Below, piece by piece: positions 17,401 through 35,872 of a stretch of DNA of 64,000 nt. Where the stretch lies: contig JAIMAG010000001.1 of the NCBI GenBank assembly GCA_023512135.1, positions 310,001-374,000 of the forward strand, read 5' to 3'. The translations under genes and the position numbers were made by a program. Positions within the stretch are counted from its first letter, which is position 1. Each line of letters opens with the position of its first letter. The DNA is from Terriglobia bacterium (GTDB lineage: Bacteria; Acidobacteriota; Terriglobia; Acidiferrales; UBA7541). Below the pieces are notes generated by a model. It had not been told where the DNA came from and did not search any database. It worked only from the letters and a program-made list of their open reading frames with translations.

Positions 17401-18018
17401 TTACGGGACGACAATCGTGTCGCCCGGTTTGAGTTCGATGTTCTGTTCGGTCCGCTTTCCCTTGAGCACATCCTTGTACTTGAACGGGTACCGCACCTGC
17501 TGGCCACCTTCGTTTCGCAGGACGTAGATTTCATTCAGATTCGCCCACTGCGAGAATCCACCGGCACCCGAGAGCGCCTGCAGCACGGTCATTCCGGGCA
17601 GCAGCGGGTATGCGCCCGGGCGGCTCACTTCGCCCAGCACGTAGAAGTGGCGACTGTTGATCTCGGTGACGATCACCGTCACCTGGGGGTCGGCGATGAA
17701 TTTCTTCAGTCCGAGGGTGATGCTCTCGGCCAGCTCCATCGGGGTCAGACCGGCGGCCTGCACGTCGTTCAGCAGCGGCAGGGAAATTTTCCCGTCCGGG
17801 CGCACCGGCACGGTGCGCGTGATCTCCGGCTCCTTCCACACACTGATGGTCAGCACATCCTGCGGGCCAATCCGATAGTCAGCGGAGGGCCCCGGCGCGG
17901 ACATACGTGCTCCATTTCCGTTGCCCGGGGATTCTGCCCTGGTGCGATTGCTGGTCTGCTGTGCCGGAAGCGGTGCTACGGTCAGCAGCAGCACAAGCAG
18001 CAGTGTTCTGATTCGCAT
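17401..18018 (-). CDS. Wza-like polysaccharide export protein (SLBB/Poly_export)
   Basis: 205 residues. The signal peptide is MRIRTLLLVLLLTVAPLPAQQ. The Poly_export motif YRIGPQDVLTISVWKEPE is followed by an SLBB domain (HFYVLGEVSRPGAYPLLPGMTVLQALS) and the terminal IELKPGDTIVVP. Known relatives form the outer-membrane or periplasmic part of the EPS translocon. This is a short, single-SLBB version without a visible lipobox or a C-terminal helix, so the pore may need the barrel encoded next to it. The ATG at 18018 has AAGGAG eight bases upstream; the extra in-frame residues to 18069 overlap the regulator gene and are discounted. Confidence 0.9.
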   Translation of the reverse strand: MRIRTLLLVLLLTVAPLPAQQTSNRTRAESPGNGNGARMSAPGPSADYRIGPQDVLTISVWKEPEITRTVPVRPDGKISLPLLNDVQAAGLTPMELAESITLGLKKFIADPQVTVIVTEINSRHFYVLGEVSRPGAYPLLPGMTVLQALSGAGGFSQWANLNEIYVLRNEGGQQVRYPFKYKDVLKGKRTEQNIELKPGDTIVVP

Positions 18019-18049
18019 AGTTCGCACTCCTTTTCTTCCTTGTGGTTCC

Positions 18050-19018
18050 TCACGTGGCCGTGGATTCATCCAAGCCGATCTGCTTCAGCTTGTAGAGCAG
18101 TGCCTTGTAGCTGATTTGCAATTCCTGAGCGGCCCGCTTGCGGTTCCAGCGCGTGCGCGTAAGAACCTTCAGAATCAGTTCGCGTTCGGCTTGCCGGGAA
18201 GCCGCCCGCGCCGCTTCTTTCAGGGAGATGCCTTTGGCCCCGCCGTTTTCGCTTCGCACGGCGGTTGCCTGCCAGTTCAGCTCCGCCAGTGCCGCACGCT
18301 CATCGCCCAGCGCGACCATTTTCTTCACTGTGTTTTCCAGTTCTCGAATGTTCCCGGGCCAGGCATATTCCATGAGGGCGCGCAGAGTTCGCGACGTCAG
18401 CACCGGCTGCGGCCGGCCGAACAGCTCCGCGTACTTCCGCAGGAAATGCTCCGCCAGCAACGGGATATCTTTCTTGCAATGGCGTAGCGGCGGCAGGCGC
18501 AGGCAAACTCCGTTGATCCGATAAAACAGCTCTTCGCGGAAGCGACCGGCGCGCACCAGCTCTTCCAGCTGGCGGCTGGTGGAGCAGATCAGGCGCGCCG
18601 CCGGCAACGACCTGTTTCCGTTGCTCTCCGGCAGCACGTGCAACAGCTTCGGTTGCAAGGCAGGGTCCAGCTCGGCCACCTCGTCCAGAAACAGCGTTCC
18701 ACTGAACCCGTGCCCGCCAGATTCCGGCTCCCCGCGCAGCAGGCGATCGAGCGTTTGCAGATCCGTCAGTGCCGCACAGTTGACTTTGATGAAGGGCTGC
18801 TGGCTCCGCCGTGAACGCCGATGCAGTTCCAGCGCAATGACTTCCTTGCCCGTGCCACTCTCCCCTTGGAGCAAAACCGGAATGTCGGTGGGCGCAATGT
18901 CTTCGACGAATCGCTCCAACGCCTGCATCGCCGGACTGCTCCCACAAACAAACGGCCTCACCTCCGCTCCGGCCAGCGGCTCCTCGACTACCATGGCTTC
19001 CGTTACCTTTAGTTCCAT
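18050..19018 (-). CDS. Fis-type AAA+ regulator without GAFTGA loop
   Basis: 322 residues, first gene of the EPS operon. There is no receiver domain, only about 25 N-terminal residues. The AAA+ core has Walker A LLQGESGTGKE, Walker B GTLFLDEVAEL and the GRFREELFYR segment. The Fis-type HTH is NRKRAAQELQISYKALLYKL. The segment between NCAAL and GTLFLDE is only 22 residues, versus 33 in the NtrC-type protein at 31109. The GAFTGA loop that contacts sigma-54 is absent, and Sensor I reads CSTS rather than ATN. The protein may bind and hydrolyse ATP but is not expected to open sigma-54 promoters by itself. It may act as a repressor, a co-oligomer or a sigma-70 regulator. Confidence 0.85.
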   Translation of the reverse strand: MELKVTEAMVVEEPLAGAEVRPFVCGSSPAMQALERFVEDIAPTDIPVLLQGESGTGKEVIALELHRRSRRSQQPFIKVNCAALTDLQTLDRLLRGEPESGGHGFSGTLFLDEVAELDPALQPKLLHVLPESNGNRSLPAARLICSTSRQLEELVRAGRFREELFYRINGVCLRLPPLRHCKKDIPLLAEHFLRKYAELFGRPQPVLTSRTLRALMEYAWPGNIRELENTVKKMVALGDERAALAELNWQATAVRSENGGAKGISLKEAARAASRQAERELILKVLTRTRWNRKRAAQELQISYKALLYKLKQIGLDESTAT

Positions 19019-19078
19019 CCCTGCCTCCGGGATATTCCGAACGGTCAGAGCAATCCTTGTTTGGGCAAACAGACAACT

Positions 19079-19094
19079 AGCACGGCGGATGCCA
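19079..19094 (-). promoter_or_regulatory. Candidate sigma-54 promoter of the EPS operon
   Basis: Minus-strand TGGCATCCGCCGTGCT has GG and GC at the correct spacing. It differs from the TTGCW consensus only by G for T at the first base of the -12 element. The expected start site is near 19068, about 50 nt before the regulator ATG at 19018. Confidence 0.55.
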
Positions 19095-19156
19095 CCCGGT
19101 TGGGTTTGCTTGGAAAGAAGCTGCTGGGCTTAAATCTTTTATTGAAAATGAGTTGA

Positions 19157-19170
19157 GGAAGGCTGCTTCC
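19157..19170. promoter_or_regulatory. Enhancer-like palindrome GGAA-N6-TTCC (EPS operon side)
   Basis: GGAAGGCTGCTTCC is an exact match to the palindrome seen upstream of other sigma-54 promoters here. It is 62 bp upstream of the minus-strand -24 element. This is a usual distance for an enhancer-binding protein site. Confidence 0.5.
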
Positions 19171-19358
19171 GTCCGGCTTCTAATGTTGAAAAACTCGAGG
19201 TGCGACCGCGTTTCCACTAAGTGGCAACAATTTTCCCTTGGACTTGACTTTTGCTCGCCAGCGACTTCTACAAATTCCAAAGATAAGTTCTTTTTTATCT
19301 ATAAATTGTCACGGGACCTCGGGTTTTAGGTGCCGGGCTACTGAATTGTCGAGCGAGC

Positions 19359-19393
19359 GGAAACAGTTTTCTTAACTCTGGAAACAGTTTTCC
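19359..19393. promoter_or_regulatory. Tandem enhancer-like palindromes upstream of exosortase
   Basis: Two copies of GGAAACAGTTTTC lie at 19359-19372 (last base T instead of C) and 19380-19393 (exact GGAA-N6-TTCC). They are 21 bp apart, two helical turns, so they face the same side of the DNA. They are centred about 105 and 125 bp upstream of the predicted start site near 19490, typical for enhancer-binding protein dimers. Confidence 0.6.
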
Positions 19394-19463
19394 ACACAAT
19401 CGTCCACGCTTTTCATTTCCGATTTGTAATAAAGGGTTTACAACTGTCCGTTCCAGGTTCGGA

Positions 19464-19479
19464 TGGCAGAGAGATTGCA
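19464..19479 (+). promoter_or_regulatory. Sigma-54 promoter of the exosortase gene
   Basis: TGGCAGAGAGATTGCA matches the TGGCAC-N5-TTGCA consensus at 15 of 16 relevant spacing and core positions. Transcription should start near 19490. An in-frame ATG at 19463 overlaps this element, so it cannot be the start codon of the exosortase gene if the promoter is real. Confidence 0.75.
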
Positions 19480-19513
19480 CAATGCGCTTGTCCGGAAGAC
19501 TAGCTCGCCGCCG

Positions 19514-20410
19514 ATGAACACTGTGACCGAACGCTGGATGGCTTCTGAGTCGGAAGGCCGATTCGATTTGCGCCGATGGATCTGGCCTGCCTTCTTATTG
19601 GCCTTGCCCGTAGGGTTTCTTTATTCTGGCGTGCTTGCCCTGCTCGTCCGCGACTGGTGGAACGACCCTGACTTCTCGCATGGTTTTTTTGTGCCGTTGT
19701 TCGCCGGTTTCGTAATCTGGCAGCGACGCCAGCGGCTCGCGCAGCTTCCTGTACAACCTTCCTGGCTGGGATTGGTCGTCATTGCCGGCTCGCTCTGCAC
19801 CCTGATTGTGGGTGTGCTCGGCGCCGAACTGTTTCTGCAGCGGTCCTCCCTGGTGCTGCTGCTGATGGGACTGGTGATTCATTTCTTCGGCTGGAGCTGG
19901 TTTCGCGCGCTGCTGTTTCCGCTGGCCTGTCTTTTCCTGATGATTCCCATTCCCTCGATTATCTACAATCGGATCGCATTCCCGTTGCAGTTGCTGGCTT
20001 CGCAGGTGGCGGCCACGTTGCTGGCCGCCAGCCGGGTGCCCGTTCTGCTGGAAGGCAACGTCATCCAGTTGCCGCACATGATGCTGGAAGTCGTGGAGGC
20101 ATGCAGCGGTCTCCGTTCTCTGGTCTCGCTCATTACACTGGCCATCATTTACGGGCATTTGCTTGAGCCGAACCTGTTTCGCCGCGCCGTGCTCGTGTTC
20201 AGCGCCGTGCCTGTGGCCGTGCTGGCCAATTCCCTCCGCGTCGCCGGCACGGGTTTGCTGGGCCATTACTGGGAACCGGAAAAGGCCCAGGGATTCTTCC
20301 ACACCTTTTCTGGACTGGTGGTTTTTCTGATTTCCTTGTTTTTGCTGTTTGCACTCCACGGGGCTCTGCGCATGTTCGAAGGGCGGTGGAAGAGAAGGAG
20401 CACACGGTGA
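19514..20410 (+). CDS. xrtA: Exosortase (PEP-CTERM transpeptidase-like membrane protease)
   Basis: 298 residues, about eight membrane helices. The catalytic triad of the family is present: cysteine in VVEACSGLRSL, arginine in ANSLRVAGTG and histidine in GFFHTFSG. Exosortases cleave PEP-CTERM tails in the inner membrane and hand the protein on for export or attachment. The surrounding EPS gene set is the one normally found with XrtA, hence the symbol, although the subtype is not certain from sequence. I place the start at 19514, downstream of the sigma-54 promoter; no good Shine-Dalgarno is visible, and ATG 19538 is another option. It is followed by epsI with a 4-bp overlap. Confidence 0.9.
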   Translation: MNTVTERWMASESEGRFDLRRWIWPAFLLALPVGFLYSGVLALLVRDWWNDPDFSHGFFVPLFAGFVIWQRRQRLAQLPVQPSWLGLVVIAGSLCTLIVGVLGAELFLQRSSLVLLLMGLVIHFFGWSWFRALLFPLACLFLMIPIPSIIYNRIAFPLQLLASQVAATLLAASRVPVLLEGNVIQLPHMMLEVVEACSGLRSLVSLITLAIIYGHLLEPNLFRRAVLVFSAVPVAVLANSLRVAGTGLLGHYWEPEKAQGFFHTFSGLVVFLISLFLLFALHGALRMFEGRWKRRSTR

Positions 20411-21057
20411 AGCTGATTCCCCGGGTACGATTCCTTGCTGTGCTGGTTTTGCTGATCGGCACGGCCGTCTTTCTCGAAGCGCGCAGCCGGCCGGAACAAC
20501 TGCCGCCGCGGAAGCCGCTCGAAGAATTTCCGCACGTCCTCGATGCGTGGGTCGGGCGCGATCTTGCCATCGCGGAAGACGTCAAGCAGGTGCTCGGCGC
20601 CGATGATTACCTTGTCCGGCTCTACCAGCGCAATCCCGAAGAGCAACCGATGGACCTGTTCATCGTTTTCTTCAAAAGCCAGCGCACGGGAGCTACGATT
20701 CATTCCCCGCAGAACTGTTTGCCCGGGGCTGGCTGGGCTCCAGTCGAGCAGGGGCGCCTGACGATCGAGCTGCCGGACCGCGCGCCGATCACAGTCAATC
20801 GCTACATCATCGCCAAAGGATTGGACCGCCAGTTCGTTCTCTACTGGTACCAGGCCCATGGGCGCGTAGTAGCCAGTGAATACTGGGCCAAGTTTTTCCT
20901 GGTCTCCGATGCCATCCGCTTCAATCGCACCGATGGCGCCCTGGTTCGTGTCATCAGTCCGGTGGGAAGGGGAGAGTCAGTCAGTCAGAGTGAGCAGCGC
21001 GCCGTAGAATTCGCCCGCCGAATCTACCCCGAGCTGCGCGAATTCATCCCTGAATAA
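20407..21057 (+). CDS. Exosortase-associated EpsI family protein
   Basis: 216 residues. One N-terminal hydrophobic segment (VRFLAVLVLLIGTAVFLEA) anchors or exports the protein. The EpsI family signature is seen in IHSPQNCLPGAGW and in FVLYWYQAHGR. EpsI is fused to the C-terminus of the exosortase in many XrtA systems and separate in others, as here. It is probably periplasmic and of unknown chemistry, though it is needed for EPS in Methylobacillus. The GTG at 20407 overlaps the exosortase stop (GTGA) and has AAGGAG upstream. An earlier GTG at 20386 lacks a suitable ribosome site. Confidence 0.88.
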   Translation: MKLIPRVRFLAVLVLLIGTAVFLEARSRPEQLPPRKPLEEFPHVLDAWVGRDLAIAEDVKQVLGADDYLVRLYQRNPEEQPMDLFIVFFKSQRTGATIHSPQNCLPGAGWAPVEQGRLTIELPDRAPITVNRYIIAKGLDRQFVLYWYQAHGRVVASEYWAKFFLVSDAIRFNRTDGALVRVISPVGRGESVSQSEQRAVEFARRIYPELREFIPE

Positions 21058-21273: not shown

Positions 21274-21289
21274 TGGCCCCTGAGTTGCA
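21274..21289 (+). promoter_or_regulatory. Sigma-54 promoter of the PEP-CTERM gene
   Basis: TGGCCCCTGAGTTGCA has TGG and TTGCA at exact -24/-12 spacing. The preceding 21057-21273 is AT-rich and gene-free. The predicted start site is near 21300, about 50 nt before the ATG at 21350. Confidence 0.72.
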
Positions 21290-21349: not shown

Positions 21350-22072
21350 ATGAGAAAACTCTGGATGTGGCTGATTTTCGTTGGGGTGGTCGGTTTTTTG
21401 GGTGTTTCGACGGTACGGGCTGACTCAGTCAGCGAATGGGTAACGGGCAGTGGGGCCACCGCCGGTGGCCAACCGGTGAGTGCTTCTGCGGTGATTACAA
21501 TCGGAGCTGGCGGCAATGTGACTGTCACGCTCACCAACAATTTCTCCAACCCCACGAGCCGCAGCCAAGCCGTCAGCGGCTTCATTATCATTTTCAGTGA
21601 TGGGAGCACTTCCGGCACCATCACCAGCAGCAGCTCCAATTTGATCAACATCAATTCTGATGGAACCATCACCAATCTTGGATCCGGCTCCACGGGCTGG
21701 AAAACCGAAACTTCCAGCGGGGGCCTTTCCATCTGCACCATCTGTCCCAACACCGGCAATGCCTTCGCACCACCCTCCCACCTGCTGATCGGTCCTCCCG
21801 GCAGCGGAGGCACATACAGCGCAGCCAATGCTTCCATCACGGGAACAAATCCAGGGTCTCCGGACCCGTGGCTGCAAACGGCGGCCACATTCAACCTGAA
21901 CATTCCGGGTCTTTCTCCGGGAGCCACGGTGGTAGGAGTCATTTTCTTGTTCGGCACGGACTCGGAACAAGTTCCTGGCGTGTTCATTCCCGAGCCCGGC
22001 ACGCTGGCCTTGGTGGGCAGCGGTTTGCTTGCGATTGGCCGGCAGTGGCGTCGGCGTCGCAAGGCTGCGTAG
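21350..22072 (+). CDS. PEP-CTERM sorted exported protein
   Basis: 240 residues. The signal peptide is MRKLWMWLIFVGVVGFLGVSTVRA. The middle is rich in S, T, G and N with beta-strand character (ITIGAGGNVTVTLTNNF, GFIIIFSDGSTSG). The C-terminus is a textbook PEP-CTERM tail: IPEPGTLALVGSGLLAIG, then RQWRRRRKAA. The exosortase should cut near the PEP, releasing or anchoring a cell-surface protein. Two cysteines (CTICP) could form a disulfide or bind metal. No catalytic domain is recognised; a matrix or adhesion role is inferred from the family. It is the only PEP-CTERM substrate I see in the window. Confidence 0.9.
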   Translation: MRKLWMWLIFVGVVGFLGVSTVRADSVSEWVTGSGATAGGQPVSASAVITIGAGGNVTVTLTNNFSNPTSRSQAVSGFIIIFSDGSTSGTITSSSSNLININSDGTITNLGSGSTGWKTETSSGGLSICTICPNTGNAFAPPSHLLIGPPGSGGTYSAANASITGTNPGSPDPWLQTAATFNLNIPGLSPGATVVGVIFLFGTDSEQVPGVFIPEPGTLALVGSGLLAIGRQWRRRRKAA

Positions 22073-22124: not shown

Positions 22125-22160
22125 GGAAAACCTTTTCCACTTCCGGGTAAGGTAGTTTCC
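22125..22160. promoter_or_regulatory. Tandem enhancer-like palindromes upstream of prsT-like gene
   Basis: GGAAAACCTTTTCC (22125-22138) is an exact GGAA-N6-TTCC palindrome. GTAAGGTAGTTTCC (22147-22160) is one base off and 22 bp away. A third, one-mismatch copy GGAAAAGCTTTTGC lies at 22214-22227, 49 bp before the sigma-54 element. Confidence 0.5.
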
Positions 22161-22276: not shown

Positions 22277-22292
22277 TGGCGAGGGAATTGCA
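22277..22292 (+). promoter_or_regulatory. Sigma-54 promoter of the TPR lipoprotein gene
   Basis: TGGCGAGGGAATTGCA has TGGC and TTGCA in exact register. The predicted start site near 22304 leaves an approximately 78-nt leader before the ATG at 22382. The rest of the 22073-22381 gap holds the palindromes above and no gene. Confidence 0.72.
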
Positions 22293-22381
22293 ACACTTTG
22301 CAGCGAAGCATTTTGTTCCATCAGCCGGAGCGGTATGTTCTTGGCTGAAAGATGCGAAATTCAGAGAAGGTGAATTTTCCG

Positions 22382-24676
22382 ATGCGTGCACCTCGCTGGT
22401 TGGTCCTGGCGGTCCTGGTCGGTTTGACGGCGGGCTTGCTTGCGGGTTGTTCCCGCGATCCCAATGTCCGCAAGCAAAAATATTTCGAGAGCGGCACGCG
22501 CTATTTCGAAGCCGGCAAATACCGGGAAGCGGCCATTCAATATCTCAACGCGGTCCAAGTGGACCCAGCCTATGCCGAGGCCCACTACCAGTTGGCGCAG
22601 TGTTACATGCGGCTGGGTGCCTGGACCGCGGCCTATCAGGAGCTTCTGCGCACCGTTGACCTGGCTCCGGAGAATTTGAAGGCTCAGATCGAGCTGGGCA
22701 ATCTGCTGCTCGCCGCGCGCGAATTCCAGGCTGCCCGGGAGCGCGCCGAGCTGGTTCTGCAGCGTGACCCCAACAACGTGGATGCGCACATCCTGCTGGC
22801 CAACTCTTACGCTGCGCTGCAGAATCTGCCCGCCTCGCTCGAGCAGATGCAGAAAGCCATCCAACTCGATCCCGACCGCGCCCGCAGCTACCTGAATCTG
22901 GCCTTCCTGCAGGCCAGCGCTCGGGAAGTTGCGGCCGCCGAAGCCAGCTTTCTGCGCGCCATCGAGCTGGATCCCCAATCGGTGCCCGCGCGACTGGCCC
23001 TGGGCAATTTCTACCAGCAGCAGCAGAAGTGGGATCGTGCCGAAGAACAGTTCCTCCGGGCCGCGGAGCTCGAACCGAGCAATCATCTTCCGGTGGCCGC
23101 ACTGGCTCGGCTCTACCTCGGACGGAATCAGCGTGAACGGGCCGAGCAGCTCCTGCGGGAGGCTAAGCCGCGCTTTTCGAACAATCCGGAAGGGTATCGC
23201 CTGCTCGGCGATTTCCTTTTTGCGGTGGGGGAACTGGATCGCGCCCTGGAGGAATTCCTCGTCCTCTACGATGAGCACCCGCGCGACCTGACCGTCAAAA
23301 AGAACCTGATCCAGTTGCTGATTCTCCGGAACCGTCTGGAGGAAGCGACCCGGCTGAACGATGAGATCCTCAAAGAAAACTCGCGCGATGTGGAAGCACT
23401 GATCTACCGCGGACAGATTTTGAATCGCCGCGGACTGTACGACGATGCGATTCAGGTGCTCCAGTCGGCTGTGAAGTCAGACGCGAACAATGCCATTGCC
23501 CGTTATCACTTGGGTGTGGCGTTCAGTCAGCTCGGCAACCTGGCCCGTGCCGAAAGCGAATGGCGCGAGGCGGTGCGGGCGAATCCGCGCATGAGCGGAG
23601 CGCTGCAGGCGCTGGCTGCCGTCGGCCTGCGCCGGAACGACTTCGAACTGGTGGCTACCAGCGCCGAAGGACTGATTGCGGCGGAACCGTACTCCCCCAA
23701 CGGCTACGTGCTGCGCGCCATGGCTCGCGTTGCCCGCAGAGATTTTGCTGCCGCGGAAGCGGATCTGAACACTGCGCTGCGTCTGGCGCCGGATTCTCCG
23801 GTTGTCTACACCCGGCTGGCGGGCCTGCGGCTGCTCCAGCGGCGCTTCGCGGATGCGGAAAAGCTCTACGAGACCGCGCTGCAGAAAGACCCCGCCCACG
23901 CAGAGGCCCTGCGTGGTCTGGTGGCCGTTTTTGTGCAGCAGAAGCGCCCGGACCGTGCCCTGCAGCGCGTCGAGCGCCAGATTGCCCAGGCGCCGGACAG
24001 CAGTCCGCATCGGCTGCTCTACGGCCGACTGCTCGCCGCCGAGGGACAGAACGACCGCGCACGCGAGCAGTTGCAGCGTGCCATCGAGCTCGACAAAAAC
24101 AATGTGGAAGCCTTCCTCACGCTCGGCGCGCTGCTCGCGGCGCAGGGTTCGGTCGCAGACGCCGTGGCCACCTATGAACGGGCCATTCAGGAAAATCCAC
24201 GTGATGTGCGCGGCTACATTCTGCTTGCTGCGCTGGAAGACGAAGCCCGCGGGAACTGGCAGCGCGCGCAACAGCTTTATGAAAAGGCGCTGCAGGTGGA
24301 GCCTGACTATCCGGTTGCAGCCAACAATCTTGCCTATCTGCTGCTGCAGCGCGGCGGCAACGTGGACCTGGCCCTTTCGCTGGCTCAGACCGCCCGCAGC
24401 AAACTTCCGGAACTGCCCAACGTGGCCGATACGCTTGCGCTGGCCTACTACCGCAAAGGGGCTTACGGCCTGGCGATCGACCTGCTCAAAGAAGCTCTGG
24501 AGAAGGCTCCGGACAATCCGACCTACCACCTGCACATCGGTTTGGCTTATCAGAAGTCGAATCAGCCGGAGAAGGCGCGCCGGCACCTGGAGCGCGCTCT
24601 GGCCCTGGCACCGCAGCATCCAGAATCTTCCGAGGCCCGTCAGGCGCTGGCGCAGCTCGGGGGAAGCTCGGACTGA
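22382..24676 (+). CDS. prsT: PrsT-like TPR lipoprotein of the PEP-CTERM system
   Basis: 764 residues. The lipoprotein signal is MRAPRWLVLAVLVGLTAGLLAGC, with lipobox LLAGC. Repeated 34-residue TPR units follow along nearly the whole chain, for example EAHYQLAQCYMRLGAWTAA, AARYHLGVAFSQ-like and NPTYHLHIGLAYQKSNQ. This length and architecture fit PrsT (TIGR02917), which accompanies exosortase systems and is thought to be a periplasmic or outer-membrane scaffold for EPS export or protein sorting. The next residues after the lipidated cysteine are SRDP. The first in-frame ATG at 22352 precedes a sequence without signal-peptide character, so 22382 is preferred. The deacetylase gene follows after 4 bp. 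Confidence 0.88.
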   Translation: MRAPRWLVLAVLVGLTAGLLAGCSRDPNVRKQKYFESGTRYFEAGKYREAAIQYLNAVQVDPAYAEAHYQLAQCYMRLGAWTAAYQELLRTVDLAPENLKAQIELGNLLLAAREFQAARERAELVLQRDPNNVDAHILLANSYAALQNLPASLEQMQKAIQLDPDRARSYLNLAFLQASAREVAAAEASFLRAIELDPQSVPARLALGNFYQQQQKWDRAEEQFLRAAELEPSNHLPVAALARLYLGRNQRERAEQLLREAKPRFSNNPEGYRLLGDFLFAVGELDRALEEFLVLYDEHPRDLTVKKNLIQLLILRNRLEEATRLNDEILKENSRDVEALIYRGQILNRRGLYDDAIQVLQSAVKSDANNAIARYHLGVAFSQLGNLARAESEWREAVRANPRMSGALQALAAVGLRRNDFELVATSAEGLIAAEPYSPNGYVLRAMARVARRDFAAAEADLNTALRLAPDSPVVYTRLAGLRLLQRRFADAEKLYETALQKDPAHAEALRGLVAVFVQQKRPDRALQRVERQIAQAPDSSPHRLLYGRLLAAEGQNDRAREQLQRAIELDKNNVEAFLTLGALLAAQGSVADAVATYERAIQENPRDVRGYILLAALEDEARGNWQRAQQLYEKALQVEPDYPVAANNLAYLLLQRGGNVDLALSLAQTARSKLPELPNVADTLALAYYRKGAYGLAIDLLKEALEKAPDNPTYHLHIGLAYQKSNQPEKARRHLERALALAPQHPESSEARQALAQLGGSSD

Positions 24677-25753: not shown

Positions 25754-26830
25754 TCAGTCGGCTGACTGTTCTGCCGTCAGTTCTCCGACGGAAAACGAGT
25801 GCGGCCGTGCTCGTTTTGCCGGCAGGCCGGCCTGGCGGATCTTGTAGAGCAAAGCCCGGTAGCTGATATTCAGCGCCCGCGCGGCGCGCTTGCGATTCCA
25901 GCTGTTCGCTTCGAGCACTTGCAGGATGACCTTCCGTTCCAGTTCGAGCACCGCCTGCCGGGTCAGTTTCTTCAGGGAAACGGAGCCGTCTGCCGGGATG
26001 TGCGGAGCCAGGTGCGTTGCTTCCTGCCCGCGGGCCACCAGTTCTTCGGCCATGGCATCTTCCGAGCCCAGGATCACATACCGCTTCATCAGGTTTTCGA
26101 GTTCCCGGATGTTGCCGGGCCAGGAATACCGCTGGAGTTGCCGCATCAATGGCTGCGAAAGAGGTTGGGCCGCCCGGTTGTATTTTTCGCCGTACACCTG
26201 CAGGAAGTAGTTCACCAGGTCCGGGATATCGACGAGGCGCTCGCGCAGCGGGGGCAGCTCGATATTCACCACGTTGATGCGGTAGAACAGGTCTTGCCGG
26301 AAATTTCCGGCCTCGATTTCGTCTTCGAGTTGTCGATTGGTGGCGCACACCACCCGCACTTCGACCTTTTTGTCCTCCTGAGCTCCGATCCGGCAGAACT
26401 GTCCGTCCTGGAGCAGTTGCAGGAGTTTGGCCTGCAGGGCCGGCTCGAGCTCACCGACTTCGTCGAGGAACAGCGTGCCGCGGTGGGCCATCTCCACCCG
26501 GCCGGGCTTGGTGCCGTAGGCGCCGGTGAACGCGCCCTTTTCGTAGCCGAACAGCTCGCTCTCCAGCAGAGTGCCGGGAATCGCCGGGCAGTTCACCTTC
26601 ACAAAAGGACCGTTCGCCCACGGTGACTGCCGGTGCAGCAGCTTGGCCACCATCTCTTTCCCCGTGCCGCTCTCGCCGCGAATGAGCACCGGAACGTTGG
26701 CCGTGGCGACCTTTTCGACCCTCTGGCGCACCGCCCGCATCGCCTCCGAGCGGCCGTAGATGATGTGCTCGGGCGGAATGTCGTTGGTCGGGACCGACAG
26801 TGAAGGCCTGGGCTGGGCAGTAGCAGACAT
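25754..26830 (-). CDS. Sigma-54 enhancer-binding regulator (AAA+ and Fis HTH)
   Basis: 358 residues with no receiver domain; the N-terminus is only about 35 residues before a FIYGRS-like start of the AAA+ core (HIIYGRSEAMRAVRQ). Walker A is RGESGTGKEM, the sigma-54 loop GYEKGAFTGAYG is intact, and Walker B is GTLFLDEVGEL. The Fis HTH NRKRAARALNISYRALLYK is nearly identical to those of the other two regulators in this window. With no sensory domain, activity may be set by expression or partners. The ATG at 26830 follows GAAGGGA, a good ribosome site; GTG at 26863 is upstream. It is my best candidate for the activator of the local sigma-54 promoters. Confidence 0.9.
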   Translation of the reverse strand: MSATAQPRPSLSVPTNDIPPEHIIYGRSEAMRAVRQRVEKVATANVPVLIRGESGTGKEMVAKLLHRQSPWANGPFVKVNCPAIPGTLLESELFGYEKGAFTGAYGTKPGRVEMAHRGTLFLDEVGELEPALQAKLLQLLQDGQFCRIGAQEDKKVEVRVVCATNRQLEDEIEAGNFRQDLFYRINVVNIELPPLRERLVDIPDLVNYFLQVYGEKYNRAAQPLSQPLMRQLQRYSWPGNIRELENLMKRYVILGSEDAMAEELVARGQEATHLAPHIPADGSVSLKKLTRQAVLELERKVILQVLEANSWNRKRAARALNISYRALLYKIRQAGLPAKRARPHSFSVGELTAEQSAD

Positions 26831-26856: not shown

Positions 26857-26872
26857 TGCACACTACGCACCA
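26857..26872 (-). promoter_or_regulatory. Possible sigma-54 promoter of the second regulator gene
   Basis: Minus-strand TGGTGCGTAGTGTGCA has GG and GC in register but departs from consensus at C4 and T12. It would give a 16-nt leader containing the ribosome site. A rival sigma-70 promoter cannot be excluded. Confidence 0.35.
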
Positions 26873-27027: not shown

Positions 27028-27061
27028 GGAAAAACTTTTCATAGCGAGGAAGTTTGTTTCC
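27028..27061. promoter_or_regulatory. Tandem enhancer-like palindromes between regulator and MFS gene
   Basis: GGAAAAACTTTTCA (27028-27041, one mismatch) and GGAAGTTTGTTTCC (27048-27061, exact) are 20 bp apart. The second sits in a larger palindrome, GAGGAAGTTTGTTTCCTC (27046-27063). They are 155-176 bp upstream of the minus-strand candidate promoter and could also serve the divergent MFS gene. The remaining 26873-27216 gap shows no gene. Confidence 0.5.
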
Positions 27062-30753: not shown

Positions 30754-30814
30754 AAATTAGGGGTGCCCCCTCTACAAGTTTCAATTGCGCCTTGCTCGTA
30801 TAACTTGGAACGAG

Positions 30815-30830
30815 CAATCACAGTGCCAAA
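30815..30830 (-). promoter_or_regulatory. Sigma-54 promoter of PilZ gene
   Basis: Minus-strand TGGCACTGTGATTGCT is a perfect TGGCAC-N5-TTGCW match, the best in the window. The start site should be near 30804, giving a leader of about 50 nt. It lies in the gene-free 30754-31108 gap. Confidence 0.8.
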
Positions 30831-30915
30831 GCAGTGCTTTTCTTCTGTCGAAAGGCTCGGCCTGTGAATTCGTTGCCCGAAGTCCCACCCCAGTGTCCCC
30901 GAATCTCTAAGCCTA

Positions 30916-30945
30916 AGTAAACCCTGTTTTTACAAACAGTAAACC
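30916..30945. promoter_or_regulatory. Direct and inverted repeats upstream of PilZ promoter
   Basis: AGTAAACC occurs at 30916-30923 and 30938-30945, 22 bp apart. Between and overlapping them is the perfect dyad CTGTTT-TTAC-AAACAG (30924-30939). It lies about 95 bp upstream of the sigma-54 element. It differs from the GGAA-N6-TTCC sites, so it would bind another factor. The rest of 30754-31108 holds nothing else I recognise. Confidence 0.4.
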
Positions 30946-31108: not shown

Positions 31109-32545
31109 CTAGCCGGTTCGCGGTATGGGAGTCGTTGGGCTCGAACGAGGTCCCCGCCCACCATCCAGTTTGAACTGGCGCATTTTGTAGAGCAAGGCCT
31201 TGTAGCTGATGCCCAGCAGGCGCGCTGCTTCTTTGCGGCTCCAGTTGGTTTTCTCCAGGGCGTCGGCGATGGCTTCCATTTCCGCTTCGTCCTTCAAACT
31301 GCGCACCAGCTCTTTCAAGCCCTGCTCGCGAGGTTGGGCTGATTCCTCCCGCGGTGAGGTTCGCTGGCGGGTTGCGGCCATTTCCAGCAGTTCGCGGAAG
31401 CTCGATTCGTCGTCTTCCAGAATTACATACCGCTTGACGAAGTTTTCCAGCTCACGCAGGTTGCCCGGCCAGGGGTAGCGCATGGCCGCTTCCATCAGGT
31501 GGCTGGAGGGACGGCGCGGGTGTTTGTTGTATTTGTCGGCATACTTTTCCAGGAAGTGCTGGAACAGTACGGGGATTTCGCGTGCCCGCTCGCGCAACGG
31601 GGGTACGTGGATGGAGAACACGTTCAGGCGGTAGTAGAGGTCTTCGCGGAACCGGCCGCACCGGATGGCTTCCCGCACGTTCACATTGGTGGCGGCCAGC
31701 ACCCGCACGTCGGAGTGCACCAGGTGTCGACCGCCCAGCCGCGAGAACTGGTTGTCCTGGAGTACGTGCAGCAGCTTCGCCTGCAGGTGCGTGGGCATTT
31801 CAGCGATTTCATCCAGGAAGATCGTTCCTTTGTTCGCCAGTTCGAATTTTCCGGGCTTGGCTCGAACGGCACCCGTGAAGGCGCCCTGTTCGTAGCCGAA
31901 CAGCTCCGATTCAAGCAGCTCGCCGGGCAGGGCCGCGCAGTTCACCTTCACGAAGGGCTGGTGGGCACGGGGCGAGCGCAGATGAATCATCCGCGCCACG
32001 ACTTCTTTGCCCACACCGCTCTCGCCGGAGATGAACACCGGCACGTCCACCGGCGCAATCTGGAGAATTTGCTGCCGGATTTTCACCATCTGCGGGCTGG
32101 CGGCCAGGAAGCAGAGGTCCTCGGTCAATTGCTCGCAGTATTCCCGCAGGGCCTGGTTTTCGGCGCGCAGTTGTCGTTTCTGGCGGCACTTCAGCATGGC
32201 CGCGTCGAGCTCGGATTTCTCGAACGGTTTCGTCAGGTAGTCGTAGGCGCCCAGGCGGATCGCTTCGACGACGGTGCCCACCTCGTTGGAGCAAGAGAGC
32301 ATGATCACGTTCAGGGTGGGATCGATCTGCATCATCTCGCGCAGGGTTTCCAGGCCGTCCATCTCCTCCATCAACACGTCGAGGATGATGAAATCCGGAC
32401 GTTCTCCGGCGCCGATGCGTTCGAGCGCCTCTTTGCCGCTGGCGACGGTTTCGACCTGGTATCCGTCCACTTCCAGCAGCGTCTGCAGGTACTTGCGGAT
32501 GCTCGGTTCGTCATCCACGACCAGGATGCGTTCTTTTTCTGCCAT
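31109..32545 (-). CDS. NtrC-family response regulator
   Basis: 478 residues. The receiver domain is about residues 5-120: acidic pair VDDEPS, phosphoacceptor aspartate in FIILDVLMEE and lysine in LTKPFEK. The AAA+ domain has Walker A SGESGVGKE, an intact sigma-54 loop GYEQGAFTGAVR and Walker B GTIFLDEIAEM. The Fis HTH is SRKEAARLLGISYKALLYK. It should activate sigma-54 promoters when phosphorylated by the kinase encoded just upstream (30-bp gap). The position in a PEP-CTERM-rich region makes it a functional analogue of PrsR, though orthology is not shown. Confidence 0.93.
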   Translation of the reverse strand: MAEKERILVVDDEPSIRKYLQTLLEVDGYQVETVASGKEALERIGAGERPDFIILDVLMEEMDGLETLREMMQIDPTLNVIMLSCSNEVGTVVEAIRLGAYDYLTKPFEKSELDAAMLKCRQKRQLRAENQALREYCEQLTEDLCFLAASPQMVKIRQQILQIAPVDVPVFISGESGVGKEVVARMIHLRSPRAHQPFVKVNCAALPGELLESELFGYEQGAFTGAVRAKPGKFELANKGTIFLDEIAEMPTHLQAKLLHVLQDNQFSRLGGRHLVHSDVRVLAATNVNVREAIRCGRFREDLYYRLNVFSIHVPPLRERAREIPVLFQHFLEKYADKYNKHPRRPSSHLMEAAMRYPWPGNLRELENFVKRYVILEDDESSFRELLEMAATRQRTSPREESAQPREQGLKELVRSLKDEAEMEAIADALEKTNWSRKEAARLLGISYKALLYKMRQFKLDGGRGPRSSPTTPIPRTG

Positions 32546-32575: not shown

Positions 32576-33793
32576 TCACTCGAGATCGGTGGGCAGCAGA
32601 AAGGTGAACGTGGCACCGCGGCCGACTTCGCTGTCCACCCAGATCTTGCCGCGATGGGCCTGAACCAGGCGCTTGGCGATGGCCAGCCCCAGGCCCATCC
32701 CGGAGGAAGAGCGGTCCACGCGCACGAAGTCCTCAAAAATTTCCTGGTGAAATTCCGGGGCGATCCCCGTGCCGCTGTCCGTCACCGAAACTTTCACGCT
32801 GTTGAACTGCGTTGCTTGGGTTTGCCGTCGTTCCACGGCCGGCACGAGCTGGGCGATGCGTCGCTCCCAGAAGTGCGGTTCGGCTGTGATCCGCACCCGG
32901 CCGCCCGCCGGGGTGTGTTTGAGCGCATTGTCCAGCAGATTCACGATGACCTGCTGCACCTTTTGATAGTCGAACTTGAAGGCAGGAAGTTCGGGCGCCA
33001 AGTGCGTTTCCAGTCGTACCTGCTTGCGCAGGGCGGCATCGTGCCAGCGAGAAACGATCTCCTCGATGCAGTCCCGCAGGTCATTCTGGCGTATGTGCAG
33101 CACCAGCTTGCCGCTCTCCAGCGCTGAGTAGTTCAGGAACATGGAGACCAGGCGCACCAGTCGTTCGCAGCTTTCTTTGGATTCCTGCAGGATGTCGCGC
33201 TGTTTTTCGTTCAGTCTGCCGAGCGAGCCCGACAGCAGCAGGTCGTAATAGCCTTTCATGACCGCCAGCGGAGTTTTCAGCTCATGCGCCGCCGATGCCA
33301 GAAACACGGTCTTTTGCCGGTTCACTTCCTGCAGCCGCAGGTAGGCAGCCAGCAGATTCCGGTAGGTAATCTCTCGTTCTTGCAGCAGCTCCTGCATGGT
33401 CTGCTGCAGGTTGCTCTCTGCAGGCACCGTCGGGGACGGTTCGATGTAAACGACCAGCCAGTCCGGCTCCGGCAGCCAGCGAATCCGCATCCGCACCTGT
33501 TCGCCGTGGCATTCGACCGGAAGGCAGACTTCCTGCTCGCCGCTCTCCAGCGGGACAAACACGCTGCGGGCATCCAGCCGCAACAGATCGGCAAACAAGT
33601 TCGGGCGCTCCGGCCCGCTCAACTGGAAGCCGTGCTCTTGCAGACATTGCTGGGCGCGAAGATTCGCAAACAGGATGCGACCGCTTCGCTCGGCTACCAG
33701 CAGCGGCCGGTCCAAACCGTCCAGCAGCGAAGAGATCAGCGAAAGGGCAAGCACGCCCCCGTTCTGCTGCTCGAGCGTGATGGTCTTACCCAA
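32576..33793 (-). CDS. Soluble sensor histidine kinase
   Basis: 405 residues. No membrane helix is visible. The N-terminal 110 residues resemble a PAS-like sensor (LDRPLLVAERSGRILFAN). HisKA carries the phosphoacceptor histidine in ASAAHELKTPL (about residue 170). The HATPase domain follows with VIVNLLDNALKHTP (N box), DSGTGIAP (G1) and GMGLGLAIAK (G2). It is the obvious partner of the NtrC-type regulator downstream. PrsK kinases are usually larger and membrane-bound, so I do not use that name. The start is TTG at 33793 after GGGAGGGG, a strong ribosome site. Confidence 0.9.
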   Translation of the reverse strand: MGKTITLEQQNGGVLALSLISSLLDGLDRPLLVAERSGRILFANLRAQQCLQEHGFQLSGPERPNLFADLLRLDARSVFVPLESGEQEVCLPVECHGEQVRMRIRWLPEPDWLVVYIEPSPTVPAESNLQQTMQELLQEREITYRNLLAAYLRLQEVNRQKTVFLASAAHELKTPLAVMKGYYDLLLSGSLGRLNEKQRDILQESKESCERLVRLVSMFLNYSALESGKLVLHIRQNDLRDCIEEIVSRWHDAALRKQVRLETHLAPELPAFKFDYQKVQQVIVNLLDNALKHTPAGGRVRITAEPHFWERRIAQLVPAVERRQTQATQFNSVKVSVTDSGTGIAPEFHQEIFEDFVRVDRSSSGMGLGLAIAKRLVQAHRGKIWVDSEVGRGATFTFLLPTDLE

Positions 33794-33922: not shown

Positions 33923-33989
33923 TGGGAAATGCGTTCTATTTTGCACAATTTGAGAAAAGAAGTTGTTCATATGAATCCGATTGTCCTGT

Positions 33990-34023
33990 GGAAATTATTT
34001 TCCACTTGTGGAAAACAAAATTA
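33990..34023. promoter_or_regulatory. Enhancer-like palindrome and half site upstream of PilZ gene
   Basis: GGAAATTATTTTCC (33990-34003) is an exact GGAA-N6-TTCC site, flanked to give GTGGAAA/TTTCCAC arms. A half site, GGAAAACAAA, follows at 34010, 20 bp on. A weak sigma-54-like TTGTACTCTAATTGCA lies at 34074-34089, 70 bp downstream of the exact palindrome, the same spacing as at the exosortase promoter. The rest of 33794-34125 is gene-free and AT-rich. Confidence 0.45.
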
Positions 34024-34756: not shown

Positions 34757-35872
34757 ATGAACACCGAGGACACTTTTCTCGAATTGCTGGTCGACACGCT
34801 GGAGGGGCTTGACCGTCCGGCGCGGGCCCAGTTTTTGCAGCGCTTCTTCCGCACCGTGGCCCACGTCGATCTGACCGAGGAGCTGGCGCTGCACTACTGG
34901 GAGCAGGTGCTCGAACGCCGCAAGGAGCTCTCTGAAAGCCAGGGGAAGCCAGTTTCGCTGAAAACGGCGCTGGTTTCCGTGATGGCTTCCACCGACCTGT
35001 TGCGCCTGCCCATTCTGATGGAGTATGCCGAGCTGAAGCAGTTGCGCATCAATGCGGCCACTGATGCGCTCACCGGCCTCTACAATCGCCGGCTCTTCGA
35101 CGAACAGTTCACGCGCGAGCTGAACCGCGCGCAGCGTCATGCCCATCCGCTCGCCCTGATTATCCTCGATCTCCACATGTTCAAAGAGGTGAACGATCGC
35201 CACGGACACGTTCAGGGCGACCGCGTGCTCGAGGCGGCCGCGAGAACTTTGTGGCGTTCGATTCGTGCTTCGGACTATGCCTTTCGCATCGGCGGCGATG
35301 AATTTGCTCTGCTCCTGCCCCAGGCCGATGCCGATGATGCCCACAAGCTGGCTCAGCGCGTCCGCACGAATTACGAAGCAGCGGTGCTTCCGATGAAGCT
35401 CGACCTGCTGCCGGCCATGGACTACGGCGTTGCGGTCTACCCGGAGGACGGCGATACCAAAGAAGCACTGATTCGGGTTGCGGACGAGCGCCTCTACCAG
35501 ATGAAGGGGCAGCCCTTGCAGAAGCCGGCCGCCCGCCGCGAAGCACCGGTGGAACGTCCCGCGGCTTCCCCGCGCCCGGAGCCGGTGGCCAAGCCAGCCG
35601 CGGGAGTCGAACGTCGCCGTTGGGAGCGCGTCTCGCTCTCCGGCACCCGTGCCTACGCCGTGCTGGGTGAAGAAGGTGGCCAGACGGCTCGTGTCGTGGA
35701 CCTCAGCTATGGCGGCGTGGCCCTGCAGATGGACAACCCCGAACAGACTCCCAATCTTTTCCAGGCGGTGCTCCACGTGCCCATCCTGCCGCCGGTCAAG
35801 GTCAACCTGCGCAAGGCCTACGTTCGCGCCGGCCCCAACGGCCCGCGCGTGGGCTGTGCGTTCGTCTCCTGA
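34757..35872 (+). CDS. Diguanylate cyclase with C-terminal PilZ domain
   Basis: 371 residues. The N-terminal 110 residues are helical and unassigned (TFLELLVDTLEGLDRPAR...). The GGDEF domain spans about 110-255: TDALTGLYNRRLF, active site FRIGGDEFALLLP and inhibitory I-site RASD five residues before it. After a proline-rich linker (about 260-285) a PilZ domain follows, with RRRWERVSLSG and VDLSYGGVAL. It should make c-di-GMP from two GTP and also bind the product, so local feedback is likely. The I-site and PilZ make two separate product sensors. It probably feeds the neighbouring PilZ proteins and EPS control. Confidence 0.92.
   Translation: MNTEDTFLELLVDTLEGLDRPARAQFLQRFFRTVAHVDLTEELALHYWEQVLERRKELSESQGKPVSLKTALVSVMASTDLLRLPILMEYAELKQLRINAATDALTGLYNRRLFDEQFTRELNRAQRHAHPLALIILDLHMFKEVNDRHGHVQGDRVLEAAARTLWRSIRASDYAFRIGGDEFALLLPQADADDAHKLAQRVRTNYEAAVLPMKLDLLPAMDYGVAVYPEDGDTKEALIRVADERLYQMKGQPLQKPAARREAPVERPAASPRPEPVAKPAAGVERRRWERVSLSGTRAYAVLGEEGGQTARVVDLSYGGVALQMDNPEQTPNLFQAVLHVPILPPVKVNLRKAYVRAGPNGPRVGCAFVS

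Follow-up and report, generated by a model that had tools for sequence, protein, structure and literature searches.

Among described systems, the closest to the locus reported here is the PrsK/PrsR regulon of PEP-CTERM proteins in Proteobacteria (PMC1569441; the pepA gene of Aquincola, PMC9850573; DVUA0057 of Desulfovibrio, PMC3333781). Both there, as far as the available text of these sources goes, and in our locus, sigma-54 elements with an upstream site are found before PEP-CTERM genes, and the exosortase, EpsI, a PrsT-type TPR protein and EPS genes occur together. In the accessible part of Haft 2006 (PMC1569441), the motif pair, or sigma-54 box, of PEP-CTERM genes is described in Proteobacteria only, and more motifs and regulators are said to await discovery.

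The other relevant group consists of relatives of sigma-54 activators that lack the GAFTGA loop. In the available portions of two papers, NtrC of Caulobacter and of R. capsulatus and VpsR are loop-less and linked to sigma-70 promoters (PMC10274813), as are TyrR, DhaR and HupR, the case of VpsR being argued from its deletion (PMC3162934).

We report here on a 495 bp gap, positions 19019-19513 of the window (the whole 64,000-nucleotide stretch of Terriglobia bacterium DNA that was analysed). It separates a leftward regulator/EPS-export operon, whose ATG ends at 19018, from a rightward exosortase operon, whose ATG begins at 19514, and the interval of the initial annotation is exact. The first leftward gene encodes EBP1, a loop-less enhancer-binding protein, and further EPS genes, among them one for a chain-length protein above cut-off, lie leftward past that of the polysaccharide export protein.

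Compared with the PrsK/PrsR regulon, as it is presented in the portions of those sources at hand, the site is different, GGAA-N6-TTCC here and a 17-nt motif ending in TTTACA there, the exosortase operon itself is under a promoter of this type, and a loop-less paralog belongs to the regulon. The PrsT-type TPR protein scored 337 bits with TIGR02917 (cut-off 312.2). PrsK histidine kinase (TIGR02916) gave 19 matches in the genome, none of them over cut-off, and two proteins of the window, the response regulator (390 bits) and EBP1 (201 bits), fall below the PrsR cut-off of 502.6 bits (TIGR02915). Judged from its genes and sites, the present regulon would work like the proteobacterial one without being that system. 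As for EBP1, it has in common with the GAFTGA-less proteins (NtrC of Caulobacter and R. capsulatus, VpsR, TyrR, HupR), in the available text on these, an AAA+ domain with Walker A, a Fis-type HTH and a deleted sigma-54 contact loop, and with VpsR a connection to polysaccharide. Unlike them, it is devoid of a receiver domain, is encoded behind a sigma-54-type promoter, and lies near a complete paralog whose HTH is similar. A literature search, in which the site itself was not sought under other wording, returned no paper joining exosortase, Acidobacteria and sigma-54; those that it returned on exosortase and Acidobacteria, judged by their listing, do not appear to concern such a regulon.

Results

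Two opposed sigma-54-type elements

Coordinates of all features are reported in Table 1. The initial annotation had placed opposed sigma-54-like elements at 19079 (minus strand) and 19464 (plus strand). Both are present, with GG and GC at the -24 and -12 positions, 10 bases apart, and both are kept in a second genome of the same genus, G001. The genome has one RpoN match over cut-off. In the whole window, sigma-54 elements with at most 2 mismatches number 38 for 39 expected, which is the chance level, so that the motif alone is no proof, and it is position and conservation that make the case. When the 495 bp were shuffled 5000 times, preserving dinucleotide content only, two elements with intact GG and GC were reached in 21 shuffles, the mean being 0.09.

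Table 1. Positions (window coordinates) of the genes, sigma-54-type elements and palindromic sites of the locus.
Feature	Position	Strand	Sequence	Remark
Polysaccharide export protein	17401..18069	-		overlaps EBP1 end
EBP1, enhancer-binding protein without receiver domain or GAFTGA loop	18050..19018	-		first leftward gene
Leftward -24/-12 sigma-54-type element	19079..19094	-	TGGCATCCGCCGTGCT	motif match and conservation
Exact palindrome	19157..19170	.	GGAAGGCTGCTTCC	lost in G001; probably chance
Enhancer-type site of leftward promoter	19223..19236	.	GGCAACAATTTTCC	one mismatch; in conserved block 19212-19237
Enhancer-type site of rightward promoter	19359..19372	.	GGAAACAGTTTTCT	one mismatch
Enhancer-type site of rightward promoter	19380..19393	.	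GGAAACAGTTTTCC	exact; 21 bp from 19359
Rightward -24/-12 sigma-54-type element	19464..19479	+	TGGCAGAGAGATTGCA	34 bp before exosortase ATG
Exosortase (EpsH family)	19514..20410	+		profile match on ORF from 19463; ATG 19514 in frame
EpsI-family protein (DUF3485)	20386..21057	+		profile match
Sigma-54-type element before PEP-CTERM gene	21274..21289	+		kept in G001
PEP-CTERM protein	21350..22072	+		
Enhancer-type site before PrsT	22125..22138	.	GGAAAACCTTTTCC	kept in G001
Sigma-54-type element before PrsT	22277..22292	+		kept in G001
PrsT-type TPR protein	22352..24676	+		above NCBIfam cut-off
EBP2, complete enhancer-binding protein with GAFTGA, candidate activator	25754..26830	-		ORF open to 26863
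Weak sigma-54-like element before EBP2	26857..26872	-		8 of 11
Two enhancer-type sites upstream of EBP2	27028..27061	.		20 bp apart (27028, 27048)
NtrC-type response regulator with GAFTGA and related HTH, second candidate activator	31109..32545	-		
Histidine kinase	32576..33793	-		adjoins response regulator

Orthologous loci were compared for conservation. A minus-strand element was found 30-200 bp before EBP1 at 20 of 25 loci, for 0.45 expected (the 25 being the window, 20 loci and four short loci, with L026, L027 and weaker matches left out). Related loci are not independent, and counts by genus, here 10 of 12, are the safer figures. Divergent sorting genes are present at 11 loci, counting the window, and 8 of these have the plus-strand element. 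These observations point to a regulatory region from which two sigma-54 promoters diverge, which we consider likely.

Palindromic sites at conserved distances from the promoters

Three GGAA-N6-TTCC-type sites had been noticed earlier between the elements. All three exist (19157 and 19380 exact, 19359 with one mismatch), but the first is not conserved, and the site at 19223 had been overlooked. In the shuffled sequences, the 2 exact palindromes compare with a mean of 0.02 (reached in 0 of 5000), and the 4 with at most one mismatch with 0.38 (reached in 3 of 5000). In the same-genus comparison with G001, site 19223 is kept within a 26-bp block with one difference, 19380 is kept, and 19359 is kept as GGAAATGGTTTTCT; the palindrome at 19157 is lost and is probably a chance match.

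The distance of the sites from the promoters is conserved as well. At 133-151 bp from the leftward element, a palindrome with at most one mismatch was found at 10 of the 25 loci, compared to 0.013 expected, and one with at most two mismatches at 15 (0.047 expected), while other 19-bp distance windows gave 0-2 and 1-6 loci respectively. Counted by genus, element and site occur together in 6 of 12 at one mismatch, and in 9 of 12 at two. On the other side, sites 19359 and 19380 are 91 and 70 bp from the rightward -24 element, and at 5 of the 8 loci with a plus element (11 divergent loci examined), a site precedes it by 70-104 bp. What this analysis reads off the DNA, as motif matches and alignments, comprises the promoters, the sites and their spacing, the order of the genes, and the loop deletion described below.

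The site is probably longer than the palindrome scored here. At orthologous loci, several sites are continued by ACTnnGTGG, and at 33988-34005 of the window, between the histidine kinase gene and a small rightward frame, the sequence GTGGAAA-TTAT-TTTCCAC forms an 18-bp palindrome, after which comes a further GTGGAAA half. A clear sigma-54 element with GG was not found next to this palindrome. Because of these extensions and this palindrome, the fuller site, judged by eye, is probably GTGGAAA-N4-TTTCCAC.

EBP1 has lost the sigma-54 contact loop

Profile matches of EBP1 are to the sigma-54 activator domain and to HTH_8. In all 21 EBP1 proteins inspected (L003, L023, L024 and L025 left out), the GAFTGA-bearing segment is deleted, meaning that EBP1 cannot be a normal sigma-54 activator. 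All 21 retain Walker A and the Fis-type HTH, and 20 of them the arginine-finger pattern. The Walker B motif has an altered DE in five; in L064, the alignment has DE present. EBP1 orthologs form one clade with a support of 100/100, in a tree from which two enhancer-binding proteins were omitted, as the pattern found no Walker A in them. The dN/dS ratio relative to G001 is 0.10. An AAA+ pattern scan of the contigs of the named genomes returned no EBP1 ortholog and 80 generic enhancer-binding proteins; none of these 80 is devoid of the loop, the 8 that failed the regular expression all having a visible variant of it.

EBP2 is the most likely activator

EBP2 has the GAFTGA motif, the AAA+ domain and the HTH of a sigma-54 activator. 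Among 13 enhancer-binding genes compared, the recognition region ISY(K/R)ALLYK is common to EBP1, EBP2 and the NtrC-type response regulator, and the only other near match is VSYKTLLAK (L035). Upstream of the first 6 EBP2 genes, a sigma-54-like element with at least 8 of 11 positions was found within 88 bp, and a palindrome with at most one mismatch further up, in 6 cases out of 6. Of 15 further EBP2 genes, every one encodes a GAFTGA-type motif; a palindrome of this kind lies at most about 420 bp upstream in 14, and an upstream element with at least 8 of 11 positions is present in 11. Only 3 pass the strict sigma-54 criterion, for 0.03 expected, which, like the weak element of EBP2 in the window, counts against the model. 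Nine of these 15 belong to genomes for which no EBP1 ortholog is listed, and the palindrome is present in all nine. Since it precedes EBP2 genes, including these nine, the data fit with EBP2 being the main binder of the palindromic site, and EBP1 an addition. The activator is most likely EBP2, and possibly also the response regulator. Near the two-component genes, at 34757-35872 of the window, is the gene of a GGDEF protein that weakly matches PilZ, which hints at a cyclic-di-GMP input to the locus.

Sigma-54 elements and palindromes elsewhere in the genome

The palindromes upstream of EBP2 are also kept in G001. PEP-CTERM genes were examined in a set of 32 whose locus had been retrieved (29, plus three from this genome; other matches, and two below cut-off, left out), with start codons picked by an ad hoc rule. 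Of the 32, 16 have a sigma-54 element with at least 9 of 11 positions 15-200 bp upstream, all three from this genome included; 0.7 were expected, and on the opposite strand a single gene of the 32 has one. Full palindromes are mostly missing upstream of the 32 genes, which counts against the regulon model.

Genome-wide, the excess of palindromes over control is 3.7 fold in genomes with EBP1, 4.3 fold in family members without it (that is, with no match at the level of L002-L025), and 2.8 fold in other families. The palindrome count per genome was therefore rejected as an EBP1 marker, the excess being no higher in EBP1 genomes; as it is similar across the groups, it marks neither EBP1 nor EBP2, which speaks against EBP2 as the main binder of the site.

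Palindrome and sigma-54 element pairs were examined in 16 stretches of this genome, among the places listed. At one of them (L072, G000:C37:31570-31788), outside long reading frames, palindromes and a sigma-54 element (31570/31773) precede a glycosyltransferase-like gene, which is likely to be a distant member of the same regulon. A more widely spaced pair, outside long reading frames, precedes another C37 gene, and a C27 pair is situated among short frames whose nature is unclear. A number of further candidates were dropped, as they were inside reading frames.

A perfect sigma-54 element of another kind of surroundings, TGGCACTGTGATTGCT, is found at 30813-30828 of the window (minus strand), before a small minus-strand gene, and is conserved in G001. 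Upstream of it, at about 30912-30945, is a conserved stretch with repeated GTAAAC/TTTACA, unlike the GGAA palindrome. These repeats resemble the TTTACA end of motif 1 of Proteobacteria, as given in the available text of Haft.

Discussion

We propose that a loop-bearing enhancer-binding protein binds GTGGAAA-N4-TTTCCAC-like sites, namely 19223 when serving the leftward promoter, and 19359 and 19380 when serving the rightward promoter. The bound activator would open RpoN polymerase at both promoters, and the EPS export and exosortase/EpsI genes would come on together; PrsT and EBP2's own gene would be under the same kind of site. EBP1, in which the DNA-binding helix and the ATP-binding motif are retained and the sigma-54 contact loop is missing, may act as a brake on the shared sites. 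The earlier suggestion that EPS and sorting genes are switched together agrees with opposed sigma-54-type promoters of one regulon facing both operons; co-expression, like the identity of the binder and the direction of its effect, is what we infer from this arrangement.

Concerning EBP1, we tentatively prefer a built-in feedback brake, occupying the same sites as the activator, to a role at sigma-70 promoters. According to the latter explanation, which is possible if somewhat doubtful, EBP1 would be a regulator similar to VpsR or to GAFTGA-less NtrC, acting on sigma-70 promoters of the EPS genes, and only its own operon promoter would be under sigma-54. Loop-less relatives are indeed reported active at sigma-70 promoters in the available parts of PMC10274813 and PMC3162934, but EBP1 is without a receiver domain. 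In R. capsulatus NtrC, ATP binding without hydrolysis is reported, in the text at hand, to be sufficient, which fits with the Walker A kept in EBP1 and the Walker B altered in 5 of 21; the resemblance of the EBP1 HTH to that of EBP2, and the position of the EBP1 gene under the same kind of site, rather favour a common regulon.

A second question is whether the 495 bp act as one hub. One set of bound oligomers reaching either promoter had been put forward in the initial annotation; a shared activator set on the central sites would then serve both promoters, and the two sides could not be regulated separately. We find this quite unlikely. Since separate sites exist at conserved spacings for each promoter, it seems that mostly each promoter has its own enhancer (leftward, 19223; rightward, 19359 and 19380). 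Moreover, the leftward promoter persists at four loci of one genus (L051, L052, L053 and L056) where no divergent exosortase was found and the leftward gene is preceded, in tandem, by EBP2; its site has at most one mismatch in L052, L053 and L056, and two in L051. Site 19223 and the plus -24 element are separated by 227 bp, and enhancers of such kind can act that far. In L064 and L066, from two genomes of genus g12, a site between the promoters is the only one listed upstream of the plus element, so that sharing is possible in some genomes; the leftward element of L064 is, however, weak (8 of 11 positions). Separate enhancers for the two promoters thus remain the reading that we retain for most loci.

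Chance matches to the motif, at promoters of the ordinary kind, are a most improbable explanation, as the position, spacing and conservation across genera of the elements go against it, despite the chance-level number of such elements over the window.

A bolder proposal, which we regard as rather unlikely, is that EBP1 is the first member of a new class of regulators, namely a loop-deleted relative of sigma-54 activators that is made from a sigma-54 promoter and acts as a negative-feedback decoy on the enhancer sites of the activator, limiting the regulon of EPS and protein sorting, and that it occurs in 12 genera or more. The locus poses the puzzle of why a sigma-54 promoter would make a relative of sigma-54 activators that is unable to engage sigma-54. 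It would represent a second concrete PEP-CTERM-related sigma-54 regulon, with its own site and its own candidate activator.
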